Positions 2,672-17,085 of a stretch of DNA of 20,120 bases are shown piece by piece (the first letter of the stretch is position 1; the number at the start of each line of letters is the position of its first letter). The notes beneath the pieces are model-generated. The model was not told where the DNA came from. It did no database searches and worked only from the letters and a program-made list of their open reading frames with translations. Source of the DNA: a virus; the IMG/VR virus record IMGVR_UViG_3300044634_002273, positions 1-20,120 of that record; one strand, written 5' to 3'. Both the position numbers and the translations under genes were made by a program.

Positions 2672-2933
2672 CTTTCAATAATTTAATTGCATTATTTAAT
2701 TCTTCTGTAAGCTCTTTAGACTTACTCACCGATGACAACTCTCTTCTCAATGCCATGATGGCGTAGTAAGGGTCAGCATACCACTGCATATGAAACCCCC
2801 TAAGCAATCCTATAGCGTTCAAATATGAATTAAGCATATCATTAAGCTCCTTGCTTATCTTTTTACTTTTGTTCATATTCATCACCTCAATGGTGGCCTC
2901 CATGCGTTTCTGGAGTATGACTAGTGCTAACAT
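2643..2933 (-). CDS. Small helical protein between primase and helicase
   Basis: A 96-residue hypothetical protein. The start codon at 2933 overlaps the primase-helicase stop (2927-2929) by 7 nt, and its own end overlaps the helicase start by 29 nt. The sequence is helical, with a hydrophobic N-terminal turn (MLALVILQKRM) and a middle part LRGFHMQWYADPYYAIMALR. Internal methionines at residues 11 and 18 are possible alternative starts. I do not recognise the family. Placement between two replication enzymes suggests an accessory role, but this is inference. Confidence 0.65.
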   Translation of the reverse strand: MLALVILQKRMEATIEVMNMNKSKKISKELNDMLNSYLNAIGLLRGFHMQWYADPYYAIMALRRELSSVSKSKELTEELNNAIKLLKDEDAKKLSK

Positions 2934-5260
2934 AACTTTGTTTGTGTTGGTTGTTTAACAATAAAATGAATCTCCTTACCATTCATGCCCTTGTATGCCC
3001 TTGGTTTCTGACCGAACGCATACTCACCATACGCATCAAGCCAATGGTAGAACTTAGCGTTTGATAGCTTATACCTACCATATCGGTCATAGTCTGGGTA
3101 GTCAGCAACAAATCTGTTGAGCATGTCCTGGCCGACCGACTTAGCGTTTGGCTTGGTGTCCATGTTGTCTCTAGCTGTAGCCCACTCCCAAAACTCAGGT
3201 GATGTCTCAGCGATTAGCTTACGGACCTTAAGGTTCTTGAATTCAGTCTCAACCAATCCTTTCTTCAAATACAACTGAAGGTTCCGGATCATGTAGTTAT
3301 CGAACTTAATCCACTCACTCTCGTTCCATCCGCTATATAGCATGTGACCAAACTCATCCTCAGGCGTCTTCTCTTTGGTGTAATACTGTCTGAACTCAAG
3401 GTCCCACTTACGTCGCTCAAATGAGTTCCCTGCACCCTTGATGGCATAGTTTGTCGTGATGAATATCTTTGGCGATCGCTCAAAAGGAATGTGAATCTCG
3501 TCCTTGTTCTTCTTCTCCAAAGTAATACCTTCAGTGATCACTGAGAATAAGTTCTCAAAGGCAAACCCCTTAGACACGTCATCAAAGACCAACACCTGAG
3601 TGTCAACCTGCACGCGTTGGTATGGGAATGACTTCTGGAAGCTGAACCCCTTGCCGTCAATTTTCACCATCTTTTTCATGTGGTTGATCGAGTTGACAAA
3701 GATACCCTTACCAGTACCACCCTCAGGATTAGAACTAATGACCTCGTCGTTTAAAATGACAGCCGGGCAATAGCTAGCTGGTTTATGGCTGTGCATCATG
3801 TAACCCAAAGTTGATTCCATTGATTGCTTGCGTGATTTATCGTCTCCTGAAATGTTTTGAACAAATGTCTCGAACTCGCATTCTGCGACATCATCTCTGA
3901 ACACAAATTCTCTGTCAATGCGCTGCATCTCCCATACGTGACCACCTAAGTCCTTATAGTCAATTACATTCACACCATCCTTAGTGATCTGAACAGCGCA
4001 GTTCAAGTAGTACAGGTAAGCGCTGTTAATTGTATCTTCTTTAAACACAGCGTCAATCTTAGGTACAAAATTTAAGAAGGTCTCCTGAAAGAACTTGGTG
4101 TTCATGGCGAAGTAGTTGTAAACCATCATATCATCAATGTCCATCAGATAGTCCAACACAAAATCTTTAATCATATCGTCAGTCACATCGCTCATCAAGT
4201 TGTCAAGCACCCTAACAAACACAAACGTCCTTGATCCAGGTGGATAGTACTTGAAGAATCCGTTGTTATTTAGAAACAATCTAAATAAGTGCGGCACTAC
4301 CTCAACCTTGCCCTTGCTTGACTTGGTCCAGAACTCAGTGACTTCAGGCAGATCCTCGATCTGGTACTTCTCAGCGACCTTCTCTGCAGGAACACCTCTC
4401 TTCAGTTCGTTCTTTACGTTCTCAAACTCGTCGTAAAACTTAGTGCCAAACGTCGACATGTCCTTGTATGCGCTATTCACAATCGTCACTATCTCTGAAG
4501 CCATCTCACCGCCTTGGTCCTGATCGTTCATGATTGAATGGGCCATTGTCTTGTCAATGCCATACTCCTTTAGGGCTACACCTAACACATAGAGGTTATT
4601 GTTGCGCTGTCCTGGTACCATGCCATAGCTCTTGCCCCACCATGTCAAAAGACGTCTGGCTATCTCGTTGTAGTCGTTAAGTCGGATGGTTGTTGTTTGT
4701 GCAACACGTTGTTGTACAACCGTCGGCCTAACCATATCAGTAAACATCTCAGCCGCTGAGTTGTAATACAGCTCAGGGTCATACGACTCATAGCACACTC
4801 GGCTGAGGTTCTGACTAGTGGTGTCAAATTCCTTGCGGTTGTAGTACTTCTCTAGGCCTTTGAAGTATAGCTTATGGTTCTCAATGTCTTTTGGTATTCT
4901 TACCAATACCTTGAGCCCATCACCTGATGGGGATAAGAAAACAGACAAGGTAAACTTATCGAGCATCAAGTCAAACTTAAATTCCTCTAGCTCTTGGTCG
5001 CTGTCAAATCCATCAAAGTCTAAGCAGATGACTCCGCTGTGATCCATGCATGCAGTGTCGGCACGTTTCTCAAACTTACCGCTAAAGCAAATGGCTGGTA
5101 GTAACTTCTTCTTCTCATTGCGCGCATCCTTTTGAGTAAGGGCTCTCACCTGCTCCACTATCTGCTGCGATTTTCCCTCCCTGATCCTCTGTAGAGCTGT
5201 CTCTAAAGACACGTAGAACGGCTTGCTGGTGTTCGTTACTGTTTGAAAGTAGGTTATCAT
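2927..5260 (-). CDS. Primase-helicase: VirE_N/BT4734-like domain, PriCT-like region, SF3 helicase
   Basis: A 777-residue replicative protein. Residues about 1-175 resemble the BT4734-like/VirE N-terminal domain: KKLLPAICFSGKF (51-63), the acidic pair CLDFDGF (79-85), and SPSGDGLKVLVRI (110-122), a layout also reminiscent of archaeo-eukaryotic primases. A helical PriCT-like linker follows (about 200-265). The C-terminal half is a D5/SF3-type helicase with Walker A GGTGKG (514-519), Walker B VLVFDD (556-561), motif C KIFITTNY (598-605), and probable arginine finger Arg616/Arg617. This fusion is typical of Bacteroidota phages and mobile elements and is expected to prime and unwind at the origin. 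Whether the N-terminus has primase activity cannot be told from sequence. The first 146 nt overlap the end of the upstream DnaA-like gene. Confidence 0.93.
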   Translation of the reverse strand: MITYFQTVTNTSKPFYVSLETALQRIREGKSQQIVEQVRALTQKDARNEKKKLLPAICFSGKFEKRADTACMDHSGVICLDFDGFDSDQELEEFKFDLMLDKFTLSVFLSPSGDGLKVLVRIPKDIENHKLYFKGLEKYYNRKEFDTTSQNLSRVCYESYDPELYYNSAAEMFTDMVRPTVVQQRVAQTTTIRLNDYNEIARRLLTWWGKSYGMVPGQRNNNLYVLGVALKEYGIDKTMAHSIMNDQDQGGEMASEIVTIVNSAYKDMSTFGTKFYDEFENVKNELKRGVPAEKVAEKYQIEDLPEVTEFWTKSSKGKVEVVPHLFRLFLNNNGFFKYYPPGSRTFVFVRVLDNLMSDVTDDMIKDFVLDYLMDIDDMMVYNYFAMNTKFFQETFLNFVPKIDAVFKEDTINSAYLYYLNCAVQITKDGVNVIDYKDLGGHVWEMQRIDREFVFRDDVAECEFETFVQNISGDDKSRKQSMESTLGYMMHSHKPASYCPAVILNDEVISSNPEGGTGKGIFVNSINHMKKMVKIDGKGFSFQKSFPYQRVQVDTQVLVFDDVSKGFAFENLFSVITEGITLEKKNKDEIHIPFERSPKIFITTNYAIKGAGNSFERRKWDLEFRQYYTKEKTPEDEFGHMLYSGWNESEWIKFDNYMIRNLQLYLKKGLVETEFKNLKVRKLIAETSPEFWEWATARDNMDTKPNAKSVGQDMLNRFVADYPDYDRYGRYKLSNAKFYHWLDAYGEYAFGQKPRAYKGMNGKEIHFIVKQPTQTKLC

Positions 5261-12350: not shown

Positions 12351-12374
12351 GTTGTTTTTTTTTAATTGGTTAAG

Positions 12375-12404
12375 ACATGAGTGAGCTCGTGAACTCGCTC
12401 ATGT
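12375..12404. other. 11-bp hairpin between genes
   Basis: ACATGAGTGAG (12375-12385), an 8-nt loop, CTCGCTCATGT (12394-12404): one T-G or C-A mismatch in an 11-bp stem. It lies in the 74-base gap between the 67-residue gene and the membrane microprotein. No U tract follows on the minus strand, so it may be an RNA-processing or stability element rather than a terminator. Confidence 0.5.
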
Positions 12405-12424
12405 TTCGACTATTGAAGTGCTCA

Positions 12425-12628
12425 TCAGTTAACCTGCTGTGGGTGCAATCTCCAATAGTCATCGGCATGCAACGTTGTCTCCGGGAAAACAACCACCCAA
12501 CCATTGTTGGTGTACTCTGTGCGATGCAATTTGTAGCGGATGTCTTGACGTCCGTTGTTGCCTTTGATCTGGTCAACTACCACCAACGTCCCGTTGATGA
12601 TAGCTTTGAATGTTTGTAGTGTTGTCAT
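12425..12628 (-). CDS. Small hypothetical protein (67 aa)
   Basis: A 67-residue protein, MTTLQTFKAIINGTLVVVDQ onwards, with KGNNGRQDIRYKLHRTEYTN and NGWVVVFPETTLHADDYWRL. It is probably all-beta and basic to neutral. Its ATG overlaps the TGA of the 47-residue gene (ATGA at 12625-12628). Two other frames over the same bases are shadows with poor composition. Family unknown. Confidence 0.65.
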   Translation of the reverse strand: MTTLQTFKAIINGTLVVVDQIKGNNGRQDIRYKLHRTEYTNNGWVVVFPETTLHADDYWRLHPQQVN

Positions 12629-12768
12629 TGTTTTGGGTGTGTTAATTGGTTAGCAAATAAGCCGAAGTTGGCTAATGTTTGTTTTGAAATGTTGGTTCTA
12701 CCTTTCATAATTTCGTAAGCAACCATTGCATCTATTAATGATTGCTTCATATTGATTCTCTCATTCAT
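12625..12768 (-). CDS. Small hypothetical protein (47 aa)
   Basis: From ATG 12768 the product is MNERINMKQSLIDAMVAYEI, MKGRTNISKQTLANFGLFAN, QLTHPKQ. The start makes a TAATG junction with the upstream 36-residue frame; a second in-frame ATG at 12750 is the alternative. The end is an ATGA junction with the next gene. The sequence is helical, and SKQTLANFGLFANQL could be a short HTH-like helix pair. Function unknown. Confidence 0.55.
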   Translation of the reverse strand: MNERINMKQSLIDAMVAYEIMKGRTNISKQTLANFGLFANQLTHPKQ

Positions 12769-12878
12769 TATCTGTATCTAAAAGGGATTAATAATTTGCG
12801 TGTCTTGATTAGTACGCCTTCTTGGAAGAAACCGATGATTTCGTAACGGCCCTCGATTCTGATTACTCTAGTTTCCAT
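12768..12878 (-). CDS. Small hypothetical protein (36 aa)
   Basis: A 36-residue frame from ATG 12878: METRVIRIEGRYEIIGFFQE then GVLIKTRKLLIPFRYR. It overlaps the end of the 60-residue gene (stop at 12868) and is coupled downstream by TAATG. It reads as a small beta hairpin-rich, very basic peptide. The two couplings are the main evidence. Confidence 0.5.
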   Translation of the reverse strand: METRVIRIEGRYEIIGFFQEGVLIKTRKLLIPFRYR

Positions 12879-13050
12879 TGTTGATTAATTTAATGTTGTT
12901 TAAAAATGCAGTTCTACGTTCACCATTCATACGTTCATATACAAATGTGGGGCTTTGGACGTCGTCTTGTTCAATAGAAACAATAAGTACATTGTCCTCA
13001 ACTATTGGGCTTTGATTAACTCCAAATGTTACTCTTTTACCTATTTCCAT
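12868..13050 (-). CDS. Small hypothetical protein (60 aa), first gene of the leftward arm
   Basis: The product is MEIGKRVTFGVNQSPIVEDN onwards, with LIVSIEQDDVQSPTFVYERM and FLNNIKLI. A start at 13089 would add 13 residues; 13050 is preferred because its AACAACACAAC leader resembles those of other genes here and the extension looks unstructured. The pattern suggests a small SH3-like beta barrel. It is the first coding sequence downstream of the candidate structured RNA, so the RNA may be its long leader or a separately processed transcript. Confidence 0.6.
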   Translation of the reverse strand: MEIGKRVTFGVNQSPIVEDNVLIVSIEQDDVQSPTFVYERMNGERRTAFLNNIKLINNGN

Positions 13051-13092
13051 GTTGTGTTGTTTTAGTGGTGCAGTGAGTATCGCTCTCATTAA

Positions 13093-13627
13093 TTAGTCAT
13101 CCTAACTGCACCTAATGCTTTGCATGCCGCGTGAAACCGCATGCTCTCTTTTATTCCCTACAGCTTGCGCTGTGGTGTCGACATGCAGCCACCTGAGTAA
13201 TGTACTGCATGCCCTAGGTTCGTCCTAGATTTGTGCTATTGTGTTGGCCTCAGCACCGCTTATGGCCTCAAATAGTATCGTATGTCAATGAACTGAGCTT
13301 AGAGCTAGTGTAGCAGACCTACTTTGAACCGCAGCTGCCTCGGCTGTATCCTCGAAAGGAGCTTAGCAGTGCTTTATCTTTTGGGTCACCTTTAGCAACA
13401 TGGCTCGTCGCTTGTACGTCTAAAGGCTTGCATTTATTAATTTACTTGACTGATATGCTGAGTTTATAAGCTCGCTTCTCGCATTCATGTTCGTTCTCAG
13501 TAGGTTTCTCCTAAGCTCTTATTACTTTCATCTAGTCTCTGTCGCAGTGACTGCTAGAACTAAGAGTCGTAATTGAATCCCCCATGTGTGTCGCTTGTCA
13601 AGTGTTGTTGTTAGCTCGTTTGCTTGA
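13093..13627 (-). ncRNA. Candidate large structured RNA, about 535 nt
   Basis: No credible frame exists on either strand, yet perfect stems follow one another. On + coordinates: 13598-13602/13623-13627; 13516-13521/13561-13566 with 13531-13535/13554-13558; 13501-13504/13510-13513; 13458-13462/13496-13500; 13389-13395/13420-13426; 13310-13313/13319-13322; 13233-13237/13252-13256; 13214-13218/13224-13228; 13182-13188/13205-13211; 13160-13164/13169-13173; 13122-13127/13139-13144; 13093-13096/13102-13105. Stem 13160-13173 closes a GCAA (GNRA) tetraloop only when read on the minus strand. A minus-strand promoter lies just upstream (13630-13659). Size and phage setting recall the GOLLD and ROOL classes, but I cannot match their consensus. 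A very long 5' leader is the alternative. Confidence 0.6.
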
Positions 13628-13629
13628 TG

Positions 13630-13659
13630 TAAAACTACAATAACTATTTTGATTGTCAA
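13630..13659 (-). promoter_or_regulatory. Putative Bacteroidota-type promoter for the leftward arm
   Basis: On the minus strand, TTG (within TTGACAATC, 13659-13651) is followed after 19 nt by TAGTTTTA (13637-13630), one base from the TAnnTTTG -7 consensus. Predicted start is near 13622, at the 5' edge of the structured RNA. Spacing fits; the -7 box is imperfect. Confidence 0.45.
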
Positions 13660-13674
13660 CTATACTTTGACAAT
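13652..13674. promoter_or_regulatory. Symmetric operator between divergent promoters
   Basis: ATTGTCAA (13652-13659) and TTGACAAT (13667-13674) are perfect inverted repeats separated by 7 bp. Each arm also supplies a TTGACA-like -35 element on its strand, so a dimeric regulator bound here could switch both directions. The winged-helix proteins encoded at 9612-9932 and 17045-17530 are possible regulators; this is inference. Confidence 0.5.
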
Positions 13675-13769
13675 TATTTTCACATTTTATGCTAATTTAT
13701 ATTCATTCTAAATAAGGACAGGTTGTCTTTTGAATGTAAAAGGTTGATTTACAGGTAGTTACAAAATAT

Positions 13770-13811
13770 GCGTTTCCAGGAAGCGCGTGAAATGATTTGA
13801 TCATTTTTTTT
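13770..13811 (+). terminator. Terminator-like tandem hairpins (rightward)
   Basis: A 7-bp stem (GCGTTTC 13770-13776 with GAAGCGC 13780-13786, including one T-G pair) is followed by AAATGAT/ATCATTT (13790-13796/13800-13806) and a run of eight T (13804-13811). It could end a short rightward RNA starting near 13670-13700 or insulate the late arm. The A/T-rich second stem is weak. Confidence 0.4.
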
Positions 13812-13863
13812 GTAGGTAAGGGCAACCCCCACCTTCCACACCTGCAACCAACACGCACAACGC

Positions 13864-14028
13864 AACGGCAGGCCGATCGATTGACCGGCCGAACGGCAGG
13901 CGCGCCGCTTGCTTTTAAGTACATTCTATTTAACATAATGCAAATTATAAGACAAGCCTAGCGCGCGACATGACAAACGGCAGCGCGTCCTGTAGCCCGC
14001 CTGTATTGGTATTGACGACAAACGGCAG
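13864..14028. repeat. GC-rich repeat cluster (AACGGCAG and CGGCCGAA)
   Basis: In a GC-rich island within AT-rich flanks, AACGGCAG occurs at 13864, 13892, 13976 and 14021; three copies extend to AACGGCAGGC, and the last two share GACAAACGGCAG. CCGGCCGAA occurs at 13885 and 14052. The dyad CAGGCCGAT-N7-CCGGCCG (13869-13891) repeats the element at 10004-10026. No protein gene is credible here. Likely a binding-site array for a regulator or replication protein. Confidence 0.55.
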
Positions 14029-14074
14029 GCCTACTGGAAAAGCCAAAAAATCCGGCCGAAAAGTTCGGAAAGCA

Positions 14075-14088
14075 GACCCCCCGGGGTC
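14075..14088. other. GC-rich inverted repeat
   Basis: GACCCC (14075-14080) and GGGGTC (14083-14088) are perfect inverted repeats with a 2-bp spacer. No T tract follows. It is most likely a protein-binding dyad upstream of the late promoter. Confidence 0.4.
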
Positions 14089-14168
14089 AACTACAGATCG
14101 TTTTCCTTTCGCGCCGGCTCGCGTGCATTGGGGGTATTACCCAAACAATCCATATATCTGATAATCCT

Positions 14169-14176
14169 TATATTTG
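14169..14176 (+). promoter_or_regulatory. Putative -7 promoter box TATATTTG for the late arm
   Basis: A perfect match to the Bacteroidota TAnnTTTG element, placing the transcript start near 14183. No clear TTTG -33 box lies at the usual distance, so strength or dependence on an activator cannot be judged. The same box, TATATTTG, recurs at 17531-17538. Confidence 0.5.
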
Positions 14177-14204
14177 CAGTATGATAATTACACTCTATCC
14201 GACG

Positions 14205-14280
14205 TTCGGCCTATCAGTAGGTTTTGACTATTTGCCTTCAGAAGGGGAACTTAGGCCGGAGTTTCTTTTTCATTTTTTTA
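14205..14280 (+). promoter_or_regulatory. Structured leader, attenuator-like, upstream of the 301-aa gene
   Basis: TTCGGCCTA (14205-14213) can pair with TAGGCCGGA (14252-14260, one T-G pair), followed by a T-rich run, which resembles a terminator. The first arm can instead form the small hairpin CCTATCAGTAGG (14210-14221). A third hairpin, CCTTCAGAAGG (14235-14245), lies between. The two main pairings are mutually exclusive. Control of late transcription is inferred. Confidence 0.4.
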
Positions 14281-14299
14281 TTTTTAAATTATCTATAAC

Positions 14300-15205
14300 A
14301 TGGCAGTAAAGAAGACCAAGATAGTAGACCCAAAGACAGGAGCTCGCGTAGCTGACCCTAGTTTTGTAGGCGCTAGCTTATCAAGTGGAGGAACAGGAAC
14401 AAGCTGGCCTGAAGTAAGATCTCAATACCAAAAGGGTCAGAGATCAGCTGAGTTCAACCGAAAGGGTGTACCGGCAGAATTGAAGAGTTACTTAACCGGC
14501 AAGACCAATAAGTTAAGTGAAGACTTTGATGAGCCAGTTATCAGAAGTGGTGGTGATGTTTCATACACCAGAACGGCTAAATCTACAAAGATGGGTGAGT
14601 TCAAGGACACGCCAAAGAACGAGAAGATGACCAAGATGCCAACCAATAAGGCGACCATTCAGACACCAAAAGGTAAGCTCAAAGAAATGAAAATCCAAGA
14701 GTTTGGTGAGTTTAAGGGTCCGTCTTCTGTAACCACTAAAACCAAAACTAGTGCAGCTATGACTGGTGGTGGTAACAAGCTTGTTAGAGCTAAGAATCCA
14801 AGTGGAAGTTTAGGTGCTGCTCGCGTTACTACTGAGAAGACTAAGGCTGCTCCTGGATACAACCGTGAGAGAAAGCAGTTCGAGGCGTTTGCTAAGCCGT
14901 TACCAAGTGGTGGATCGTTAAACGTTAATGAAGACACAAGTCCTGTTATCAAGCGTGCTCAAGCTGAGGCTAGTCAACTTAAGAGTGCTTACCGCAAGGA
15001 GGGCAACCGTGAGGGTGTCAAGATGATGGGAGCTGAGGCTAAGCAGTTAGGCAGAGCGGCTAAGTTTGCTGACAAGATGTATGAGAAGGGTGGTGGTGAC
15101 TACTTTACTAGAGACATGGTGAAAGGATTTAGAGGATCTGACGCCAATCCAGCCAATCAGAACACTATTGAGAGGCAACAAAAGCTCATCAATAGCAGAA
15201 AATAA
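14300..15205 (+). CDS. Basic, disordered hypothetical protein (301 aa)
   Basis: A 301-residue Lys/Ser/Thr/Gly-rich protein starting MAVKKTKIVDPKTGARVADP. Most of it looks intrinsically disordered (KTKTSAAMTGGGNKLVRAKN, PLPSGGSLNVNEDTSP), with a helical segment at about 215-265 (KRAQAEASQLKSAYRKEGNR, EAKQLGRAAKFADKMYEK). No domain is recognised. High positive charge and position at the head of the rightward arm suggest a virion or DNA-associated protein, but this is context only. It has its own leader and ends at a strong terminator (15212-15234), so it is a monocistronic unit. Confidence 0.8.
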   Translation: MAVKKTKIVDPKTGARVADPSFVGASLSSGGTGTSWPEVRSQYQKGQRSAEFNRKGVPAELKSYLTGKTNKLSEDFDEPVIRSGGDVSYTRTAKSTKMGEFKDTPKNEKMTKMPTNKATIQTPKGKLKEMKIQEFGEFKGPSSVTTKTKTSAAMTGGGNKLVRAKNPSGSLGAARVTTEKTKAAPGYNRERKQFEAFAKPLPSGGSLNVNEDTSPVIKRAQAEASQLKSAYRKEGNREGVKMMGAEAKQLGRAAKFADKMYEKGGGDYFTRDMVKGFRGSDANPANQNTIERQQKLINSRK

Positions 15206-15211
15206 TAGATA

Positions 15212-15234
15212 AGCCCTCCAAGTGAGGGCTTTTT
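15212..15234 (+). terminator. Intrinsic terminator after the 301-aa gene
   Basis: AGCCCTC (15212-15218), loop CAAGT, GAGGGCT (15224-15230), then T tract to 15234. A perfect 7-bp GC-rich stem with an immediate U tract. It separates the first late gene from the chaperonin operon. Confidence 0.88.
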
Positions 15235-15247
15235 CATTAAAAATCAC

Positions 15248-15255
15248 TAGATTTG
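15248..15255 (+). promoter_or_regulatory. Putative -7 box TAGATTTG for groEL-groES
   Basis: A perfect TAnnTTTG match 18 bp upstream of the groEL ATG (15273), right after the terminator. It implies a very short leader. No good -33 box is visible. Confidence 0.5.
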
Positions 15256-15272
15256 TCAAAAAATCAAGTGAA

Positions 15273-16841
15273 ATGGTAGTAAAACATGTACATTTAGGCG
15301 ACGAAGGTCGTAAAAAGCTCATTAAAGGCATCAAAACGATCGCTGGAGCTGTAAAAAGCACATTAGGTGCGCGAGGCCGGACGGTCTTGATTGAATCAGA
15401 GCATCACGTTGGTGGTATTACAGTAACAAAGGACGGTGTGACGGTCGCTAAGTCGATCAATCTCTACGACCCGGTTGAGAATTTGGCTGTTATGATGATG
15501 CGACAGGCTGCTGAGAAGACAGCTACTGTTGCAGGTGATGGCACAACCACGTCAATCGTGATCGCTGAGGCCATTGTTGATGCGGCATCCGATGTAATTA
15601 CTTCAGATGACAACGTGACTGAGGTGATCCGTGAGATCAATGAGATCACAACTGACGTTGTGAAGCATTTGACCAAACGAGCCAAGAAGCTCTCAGGTAA
15701 GAAGCTTAAGGACGTTGCGTCTATCAGTGCAAACAATGACACGACAATTGGTGGTATGATCGCTGACGCGTTCAGTGAGGTTAAGATGGTATCTGTTGAG
15801 AACAGCAAGGACCACAACACGTATGTTGAGGTGATCAAGGGGATTAAGACTGACCGAGGTTGGACTAGTCGCCATTTCATCACTGACTACAAGCGCCAGG
15901 AGGCCATCCTAGAGAACCCATATGTCTTGATCACTGACCAAGAGATCAATAACCTGCTCAACATTGAGCGCGTTCTCCAACATGTTGTCGCACAGAACAA
16001 GTCACTACTCATCATCGGTGAGATGACACCTGCTGCACTTAATACCCTTAATATAAATGTCGCTCAGGGCAAGATCAAGGCATGCCACATTATGCCGCCG
16101 AACTTCGGGTACCGTCAGAAAGATTTGTTGGAAGACCTAGCGATCGCATTGGACGGCACATACTTCAGTGAGGACACTGGTGATGACTTGTCGTTGATTG
16201 ATGTGGCACACCTAGGTAGGTGCTCTAAGGTGATTGTTGGCAAGGACCATACGATCTTTATGCCTTATGCTAGCTCTCAAGATAGCATAGACGCGCGCAT
16301 TGCCGACATCAACGAGACTATCTTCGACGGCATCACTAAAGAAGAGATGGATAACCGCAAGGAGCGTGCAGCCAATCTATCAGGTGGTGTTGCTGTGATC
16401 TACGTAGGTGCTCTCAGTGACATTGAGCAGAAGGAGAAGCGCGATCGCATCGATGACGCTGTCTGCGCTGTTGAGGCGGCCTTAGAGGAGGGTATCCTTC
16501 CTGGAGGCGGTGTTGCTCTATTTGAGTATGCAATCACGCACTTACGCGGCAAGATGAGTGCTGCTGAGCGAATTATGTTCAGAGCTATAACAGCTCCAAT
16601 GTGGCAGATACTTGTGAACGCTGGCAAGGACGCTCAAGAAATCATGGACAGCATCATACCATTCCCTAACGAGGGCTATGACGTGAAGGGTGAGCAGTAT
16701 GGTGACATGATCAAGCTTGGTATTATTGACCCGGCTAAGGTTACAAAGAACGCCTTATTGAACGCTGTGTCTGTAGCGACTACAATCATGAGCACAAATG
16801 CAATAATCACAAATATCAGAGCAGATGAAGGTATTAAGTAA
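15273..16841 (+). CDS. groEL: Phage chaperonin GroEL (Hsp60)
   Basis: A 522-residue group I chaperonin. The upstream GTG-initiated extension (15222) runs through the terminator and is rejected; the ATG at 15273 gives a normal N-terminus. Diagnostic segments: STLGARGRTVLI (29-40, Ala where hosts have Pro), VTKDGVTVAKSI (51-62), the ATP-binding AGDGTTT (87-93, Asp89), SISANND (150-156), apical domain SLLIIGE (244-250) and RDRIDDAVCAVEAALEEG (390-407), where Asp395 aligns with catalytic Asp398 of E. coli, and PGGG (410-413). All key ATPase residues seem intact. The C-terminus ends RADEGIK, without the Gly/Met-rich tail. It likely forms a double-ring folding chamber, with the GroES partner encoded directly downstream. 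Confidence 0.96.
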   Translation: MVVKHVHLGDEGRKKLIKGIKTIAGAVKSTLGARGRTVLIESEHHVGGITVTKDGVTVAKSINLYDPVENLAVMMMRQAAEKTATVAGDGTTTSIVIAEAIVDAASDVITSDDNVTEVIREINEITTDVVKHLTKRAKKLSGKKLKDVASISANNDTTIGGMIADAFSEVKMVSVENSKDHNTYVEVIKGIKTDRGWTSRHFITDYKRQEAILENPYVLITDQEINNLLNIERVLQHVVAQNKSLLIIGEMTPAALNTLNINVAQGKIKACHIMPPNFGYRQKDLLEDLAIALDGTYFSEDTGDDLSLIDVAHLGRCSKVIVGKDHTIFMPYASSQDSIDARIADINETIFDGITKEEMDNRKERAANLSGGVAVIYVGALSDIEQKEKRDRIDDAVCAVEAALEEGILPGGGVALFEYAITHLRGKMSAAERIMFRAITAPMWQILVNAGKDAQEIMDSIIPFPNEGYDVKGEQYGDMIKLGIIDPAKVTKNALLNAVSVATTIMSTNAIITNIRADEGIK

Positions 16842-17085
16842 ATACTTGCTCGTTAAGCGAGTAAGTGAGCAAAAGCAGACCAAGAGTGGTTTGCTTCTGA
16901 CTGGCGAGGACGCCAATGAGATGCGTTACCATAAGGCTATTGTCTACAAAGTAGGCGATAACATCCTCGGCATAAATTCCGAGGATACTATCCTTTACGA
17001 CAAAGTGCAAAGCCACGAGATCATCCTTGATAATGAAAGGATGACTATAATTCAGGAGAAGGACGTTGTTTGCGTCTTCGATTAA
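16825..17085 (+). CDS. groES: Phage co-chaperonin GroES-like protein
   Basis: An 86-residue protein, ATG at 16825 overlapping the groEL end by 17 nt. It aligns with GroES: LLVKRVSE (8-15, compare VIVKRKE), a mobile loop KQTKSGLLLTGEDAN (17-31) with LLL in place of the GroEL-binding IVL tripeptide, then a beta-barrel core (HKAIVYKVGD, ILYDKVQSHEIILDNERM) and the end VVCVFD. It is somewhat shorter than bacterial GroES (about 95-97) and appears to lack the extended roof loop. It should cap the GroEL ring. Gene order groEL-groES is the reverse of the bacterial groES-groEL operon. Its end overlaps an antisense gene. Confidence 0.88.
   Translation: MKVLSKYLLVKRVSEQKQTKSGLLLTGEDANEMRYHKAIVYKVGDNILGINSEDTILYDKVQSHEIILDNERMTIIQEKDVVCVFD

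Follow-up and report, generated by a model that had tools for sequence, protein, structure and literature searches.

A putative structured RNA lies between early and late genes

The window, a 20,120-nt virus fragment from IMG/VR, carries minus-strand genes to the left of 13.05 kb, including those for a primase/helicase-type protein (2927-5260), a helicase and an exonuclease, and plus-strand genes to the right of 14.3 kb, including those for GroEL and GroES. The chaperonin pair is phage-encoded (15222-17085), and its GroEL is at best 47% identical to that of any named phage. Between these early (minus) and late (plus) genes, in the divergent stretch, sits a region that a first-pass annotation had delimited as 13093-13627 and read as a candidate large structured phage RNA. 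We revised the limits of this RNA to about 13625 to 13067 on the minus strand (~560 nt), with its 3' element lying partly beyond the original range. The region and its flanks comprise the following features:

13630-13659, minus strand: Bacteroidota-type promoter, consisting of TTG (13657-13659), a 19-nt spacer and TAGTTTTA (13630-13637)
13614-13625, minus strand: conserved RNA start, AAGCAAACGAGC, located by a scan for promoter plus start
13434-13600, minus strand: optional 5' module, type 1, with CTCTTA/TAAGAG, TCTAG/CTAGA and the conserved TGAAAGTAA
13311-13433, minus strand: domain A, matched by covariance model R1 at 122.6 bits
13282-13293, minus strand: boxA motif GTTCATTGACAT (consensus GTTCTTTGACAT), a motif of the arrays and of host rRNA spacers
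13180-13288, minus strand: core of domain B, from a match to covariance model R3 (E 3e-4) and covariation
13113-13179, minus strand: rest of domain B, two more covarying hairpins, of the ACAGC/GCTGT and GCATGC..AGTTTCACG..GCATGC types
13067-13112, minus strand: tRNA-like three-way element, matched by covariance model R2 at 74.3 bits
12868-13050, minus strand: first ORF of the early operon (60 aa, MEIGKRV...), its start codon 16 nt after the 3' element

The annotation had rested on stems packed into a stretch without a credible frame. The stems it named are present (CCTTTAG/CTAAAGG at 13389-13395/13420-13426 and CATGCAG/CTGCATG at 13182-13188/13205-13211), and the longest ORF in the stretch is only 43 aa. 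The folding energy of the minus strand gave z = -1.42, with 6 of 100 shuffles equally stable, and that of the plus strand z = -0.17. Since this thermodynamic stability is unremarkable, the number of stems is not evidence by itself, and homologues were required.

Homologues occur in related phages and match no known family

Scanning viral contigs for GroEL yielded 44 loci, about 30 of which gave a low-stringency blastn match to the region, placed upstream of groEL and oriented opposite to it. Further arrays came from scans with domain motifs and the 3' element, for a total of ~46 distinct ones; the module table covers 42, while L081, L161, L163 and L165 came from other patterns. A pattern scan for the promoter together with the conserved start returned 51 contigs, most of which proved on inspection to be real arrays.

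Outside this set, DNA similarity between named phages and three array types, and a search of 84,980 species genomes with the leader pattern, gave chance matches only, and the array is absent from MW202828 and Flavobacterium phage elemo, the named phages closest in GroEL. Covariance models R1 and R3 had no match in 395 Bacteroidota genomes, with the caveat that stricter search filters can miss weak ones; in three phage records of 63-65 kb, the same R1 search recovered a single copy apiece. Two further contigs, L160 (67.9 kb) and L166 (65.2 kb), carry boxA with domain B, and neither the window's GroEL nor its primase was detected there, a distribution that suggests exchange between phage lineages.

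Comparison with Rfam, proposed in the first-pass annotation as one check, gave no meaningful match at gathering or permissive thresholds, in keeping with the idea of a possibly new class distinct from GOLLD and ROOL. The GOLLD and ROOL models themselves had no match at gathering thresholds in the window, at E<=10 in 13067-13625 with its flanks (12800-14350) or at E<=2 in 69 kb of sequence from seven relatives. ARAGORN and Rfam searches detected no tRNA or tmRNA gene, either in the window or in 32 loci from relatives. Our search of the literature found no paper describing this RNA. Thus, the RNA matches no known family among Rfam, tRNAs, the named phages and the Bacteroidota genomes tested.

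The RNA is a chain of exchangeable modules

The arrays follow one order: promoter, conserved start, optional 5' module, domain A, boxA, domain B, optional T-arm hairpin, 3' element, ACTAACC and start codon. The 5' module is of two kinds or missing, depending on the phage: type 1 recurs in L003, L092 and L163, other relatives have the second type or nothing, and blastn comparison shows 13431-13600 of the window to be missing from relatives without type 1. Domain B likewise occurs in several forms, and the T-arm hairpin, GGTGG-TTCGATT-CCATC inside an AACTTG/CAAGTT stem, is found in some members. In all, the exchangeable domains amount to 300-850 nt. Even close relatives differ: L009, whose GroEL is 96% identical to the window's, nevertheless lacks the 5' module and has domain form B2 in place of B1, and L092 and L100 share the promoter type but are distinguished by the 5' module and the T-arm hairpin. 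As domains are swapped or lost between near relatives, and domain B is found in other contigs, the domains behave as units.

An insert after boxA (TAATTTCCCTCGCTGA..AGGTT) is common to the otherwise different arrays of L024/L049 and L097/L102 and may be another exchangeable module. In L033, L034 and L050, a second promoter-like sequence, TTG-N20-TACCTTTG, lies within the array, as if there were two transcription units.

Promoter and strand

The first-pass annotation had proposed a minus-strand promoter-like pair at the 5' edge; the pair is confirmed, but is of the Bacteroidota type and not sigma-70. Aligning the upstream sequences of 46 loci revealed that the second promoter box reads TAnnTTTG in most relatives. 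The resulting TTG-N19-TAnnTTTG, the Bacteroidota promoter form, is conserved in about 40 relatives, and nearly all arrays start 4-5 nt downstream of it. From these alignments alone, transcription is predicted to start at or just before AAGCAAACGAGC (13625 downward). Between the array promoter and the late genes, a GC-rich stretch (13864-14031) holds four copies of AACGGCAGGCC or close forms, which are possibly operators or an origin element.

We assigned the RNA to the minus strand because the promoter points that way, boxA is in sense orientation, the operon lies behind the array, and covariance-model scores favour this strand (76 bits on the RNA strand of L012 versus 33 on the opposite strand). 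Single-sided changes favoured G-U over A-C in three of four alignments; since domain A is the exception, these counts were not used as a basis for strand. Nor does the GCAA tetraloop, originally offered as a strand argument, serve this purpose: the hairpin at 13160-13173 does read ACAGC-GCAA-GCTGT on the minus strand and its stem covaries, but its loop varies among relatives.

Covariation supports local structured domains

Compensatory changes were found in each alignable domain, far above both shuffled and slid controls, which bears out the proposal of a large structured phage RNA on the minus strand. Domain A has seven helices arranged around the conserved loops GAYGA, GAAACRATAAA and GGTTYAAAGTA, together with a UUCG-capped hairpin; 26 of its 32 pairs show compensatory change, and its covariation score is 0.505 as compared to 0.203 in shuffles. 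Hammerhead-like strings in this domain (GATGA..GAAAC) were rejected by inspection, as the helices do not fit that ribozyme.

The core of domain B begins within boxA (TTGACAT), and a TACATTACTCAGGTGG loop caps its CATGCAG/CTGCATG stem, which in L003 reads CATGCGA/TCGCATG, a double compensatory change. Compensatory change affects 14 of 28 pairs in form B1 (score 0.500, shuffled 0.218) and 11 of 23 in form B2 (0.429, shuffled 0.172); for both forms, further pair types are no more numerous than in shuffles. Model R3, which was built on B2, recognises the window's B1 (13180-13288), and B1 and B2 are therefore variants of one domain. The domain B core ends with ATGTC (13180-13184), to which GACAT, the 3' part of boxA (13282-13288), is complementary. 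Such pairing might hide boxA; three of its pairs are near invariant, and it is inferred from complementarity alone.

Sliding the partners by 1-3 columns collapsed the covariation signal in all alignments. Without prior structure, a search of 15 full-length arrays found 11 covarying helices, nearly all local, as compared to 0-5 after column shuffling. The shuffled controls ignore relatedness, and the argument accordingly rests on the numbers of compensatory changes and on the slid controls; in addition, the structures tested were partly drawn from the same sequences. Within these limits, and as far as comparative sequence analysis can establish it, the structure is proven by covariation and not by folding energy. 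What covariation supports is a modular chain of local domains, not one compact RNA.

A host-type boxA lies in the middle of the array

Among the 42 tabulated arrays, 34 fit G[TG][TA]C[TAC]TTGA[CT] at the boxA position and 4 more are variants. We checked boxA in host genomes by motif and the rRNA context of its occurrences by Rfam. The extended motif is commoner than its reversed control in 118 Bacteroidota genomes, and in all three occurrences examined (L152, L154, L155) GTTCTTTGACAT lies in the 16S-23S spacer, just upstream of the 23S rRNA. One rRNA-spacer occurrence has 19 nt, GTTCTTTGACATATTGGTA, in common with a phage array. Beyond boxA, we found no rRNA similarity or complementarity above chance that would indicate rRNA mimicry or an antisense role.

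The rRNA antitermination complex of E. coli requires boxA for its assembly, and boxA alone suffices (PMC10250234). The phage site resembles that of an rRNA operon in that the motif, identical to the one in the Bacteroidota 16S-23S spacer, stands in sense orientation ahead of structured untranslated RNA; it differs in preceding domain B rather than 23S rRNA. We consider it likely that phages of this group use boxA for host antitermination, an inference made without NusB/S10 binding data. Since boxA sits mid-array, between domains A and B, it leaves domain A unprotected from termination.

The 3' end resembles part of a tRNA

The 3' element consists of a 7-bp acceptor-like stem, a 4-bp arm with a 5-nt loop, and a 4-bp arm with a 7-nt AGCGATA loop. 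In 17 distinct sequences, 99.6% of cells pair and 11 of 15 pairs show compensatory change, with a covariation score of 0.519 (shuffles: 0.121, sd 0.022). For the T-arm module of other members, the corresponding count is 5 of 11 pairs. An acceptor/T-arm minihelix calls for ~11-12 coaxial bp and a 7-nt loop, which the covarying, near-coaxial 7+4 bp with an AGCRAYA loop satisfy. The 3' RCCA of an RNase P substrate is missing, however: the tail is ACTAACC or a close variant, and CCA is not encoded. In L104 (785-823) and L043, acceptor/T-arm minihelices with a canonical TTCGATT loop replace the three-way element and resemble tRNAs lacking the D and anticodon arms; in L039 the position is taken by a plain hairpin.

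At the 3' end of MALAT1, mascRNA is a tRNA-like 3' processing element, and by analogy only, the array also presents an acceptor/T-arm-like structure at the end of a long noncoding RNA. The L104 minihelix bears a weak, below-threshold resemblance to the mascRNA model (18.4 bits). Unlike mascRNA, the element belongs to a bacterial phage, is three-way in most members, does not encode CCA and has not been shown to be cleaved. Processing at this end is inferred from shape, and we put it forward tentatively.

Proposed mechanism and alternatives

The array occupies the untranslated first part of the early operon, so that the long 5' leader first offered as an alternative to a structured RNA is also correct as to position. 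We are confident, in the absence of transcript data, that the region is transcribed as the untranslated leader of the early (replication) operon. Transcription of the minus strand would probably begin from the promoter at the very start of infection; at boxA, RNA polymerase would gain NusB/S10-type antitermination from the host, enabling it to read on through the remainder of the untranslated part and the long operon behind, after which the domains would fold. Host RNase P and RNase Z would probably recognise the acceptor/T-arm end and separate the RNA from the mRNA. The released RNA, whole or as separate domains, would then work in trans early in infection. Nothing shows trans action, and we regard this inferred step as evenly balanced. 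Taken as a whole, a phage-specific modular structured RNA that leads the early operon, uses boxA antitermination, is probably processed at a tRNA-like end and acts in trans is the explanation we favour, with some reserve.

The main rival is a leader that works only in cis for the early operon, in the manner of HK022 put or lambda nut, where boxA and the domains modify RNA polymerase and free RNA is irrelevant. HK022 put itself acts in cis without boxA. The array directly follows its promoter, contains the host boxA motif and heads the operon regardless of the first gene. Like HK022 put, where nascent phage RNA alone suffices for early genes (PMC9378689), it is a structured RNA in a phage early-gene leader; put, however, is short, and this RNA is long and modular and belongs to phages of another host phylum. 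The extent of the exchangeable domains far exceeds known put and nut sites, and the mid-array boxA, the domain B copies in contigs without this lineage's GroEL or primase and the chains split by a second promoter-like sequence also count against a purely cis role, which we judge unlikely while keeping it in view.

A further possibility is one large, ornate RNA folding as a unit and possibly oligomeric, as the homo-oligomeric cages of GOLLD and ROOL are. It would account for the similar size, the phage origin and the lack of a known function, and for the pairing of a constant 3' part with a variable 5' part that has been described in GOLLD (PMC12286853). GOLLD and ROOL are the nearest in kind, being phage-borne, several hundred nt long, heavily covarying, of unknown function and associated with tRNA-like elements (PMC12286853), but membership fails: this RNA matches them in neither sequence nor structure, is built of local modular domains rather than one elaborate fold, carries boxA, leads a Bacteroidota phage early operon and has no tRNA genes nearby. 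With no Rfam match, almost only local helices among those found de novo, and whole domains gained and lost between close relatives, we hold a single ornate fold to be improbable.

Regulation of the first early gene in cis, by a riboswitch, an attenuator or translation control, would fit the position of the array, which in 40 loci ends 16-25 nt upstream of the first start codon. The first gene comes from 18 unrelated groups, however, which excludes a dedicated switch for one gene and is compatible with an operon-wide cis role or a free RNA product; moreover, the ACTAACC-AATTAA leader also precedes other genes without the RNA. We therefore give such a regulator very little credence. At 12360-12660 and in relatives, TAACCAATTAA or a similar sequence stands shortly upstream of several early start codons and may be a translation signal of these phages. 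A DNA-level element (a replication origin or packaging site with inverted repeats acting as DNA) has the location in the divergent early/late region in its favour and is scarcely tenable given the conserved promoter at the start, the sense-oriented boxA, the far higher model scores on the RNA strand and, in all alignments but that of domain A, the predominance of G-U over A-C changes.

Implications for Bacteroidota phages

Phages are known to carry only a few classes of large structured RNA, none of them with an established function. This RNA has over 40 homologues, well-defined domains, a promoter, a boxA of host type and an end like that of a tRNA, and its boundaries and partners accordingly give direct predictions. 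If the inferred use of boxA holds, the RNA connects early transcription in Bacteroidota phages with the antitermination of their hosts' rRNA operons. That close relatives have exchanged domains suggests selection by the host and an arms race with it. More speculatively than for any single step above, the arrays may form a cassette system of Bacteroidota phages, in which exchangeable RNA domains would be expressed first, carried through by host rRNA antitermination, freed by the host's tRNA-processing enzymes and traded as effectors or decoys against host functions.
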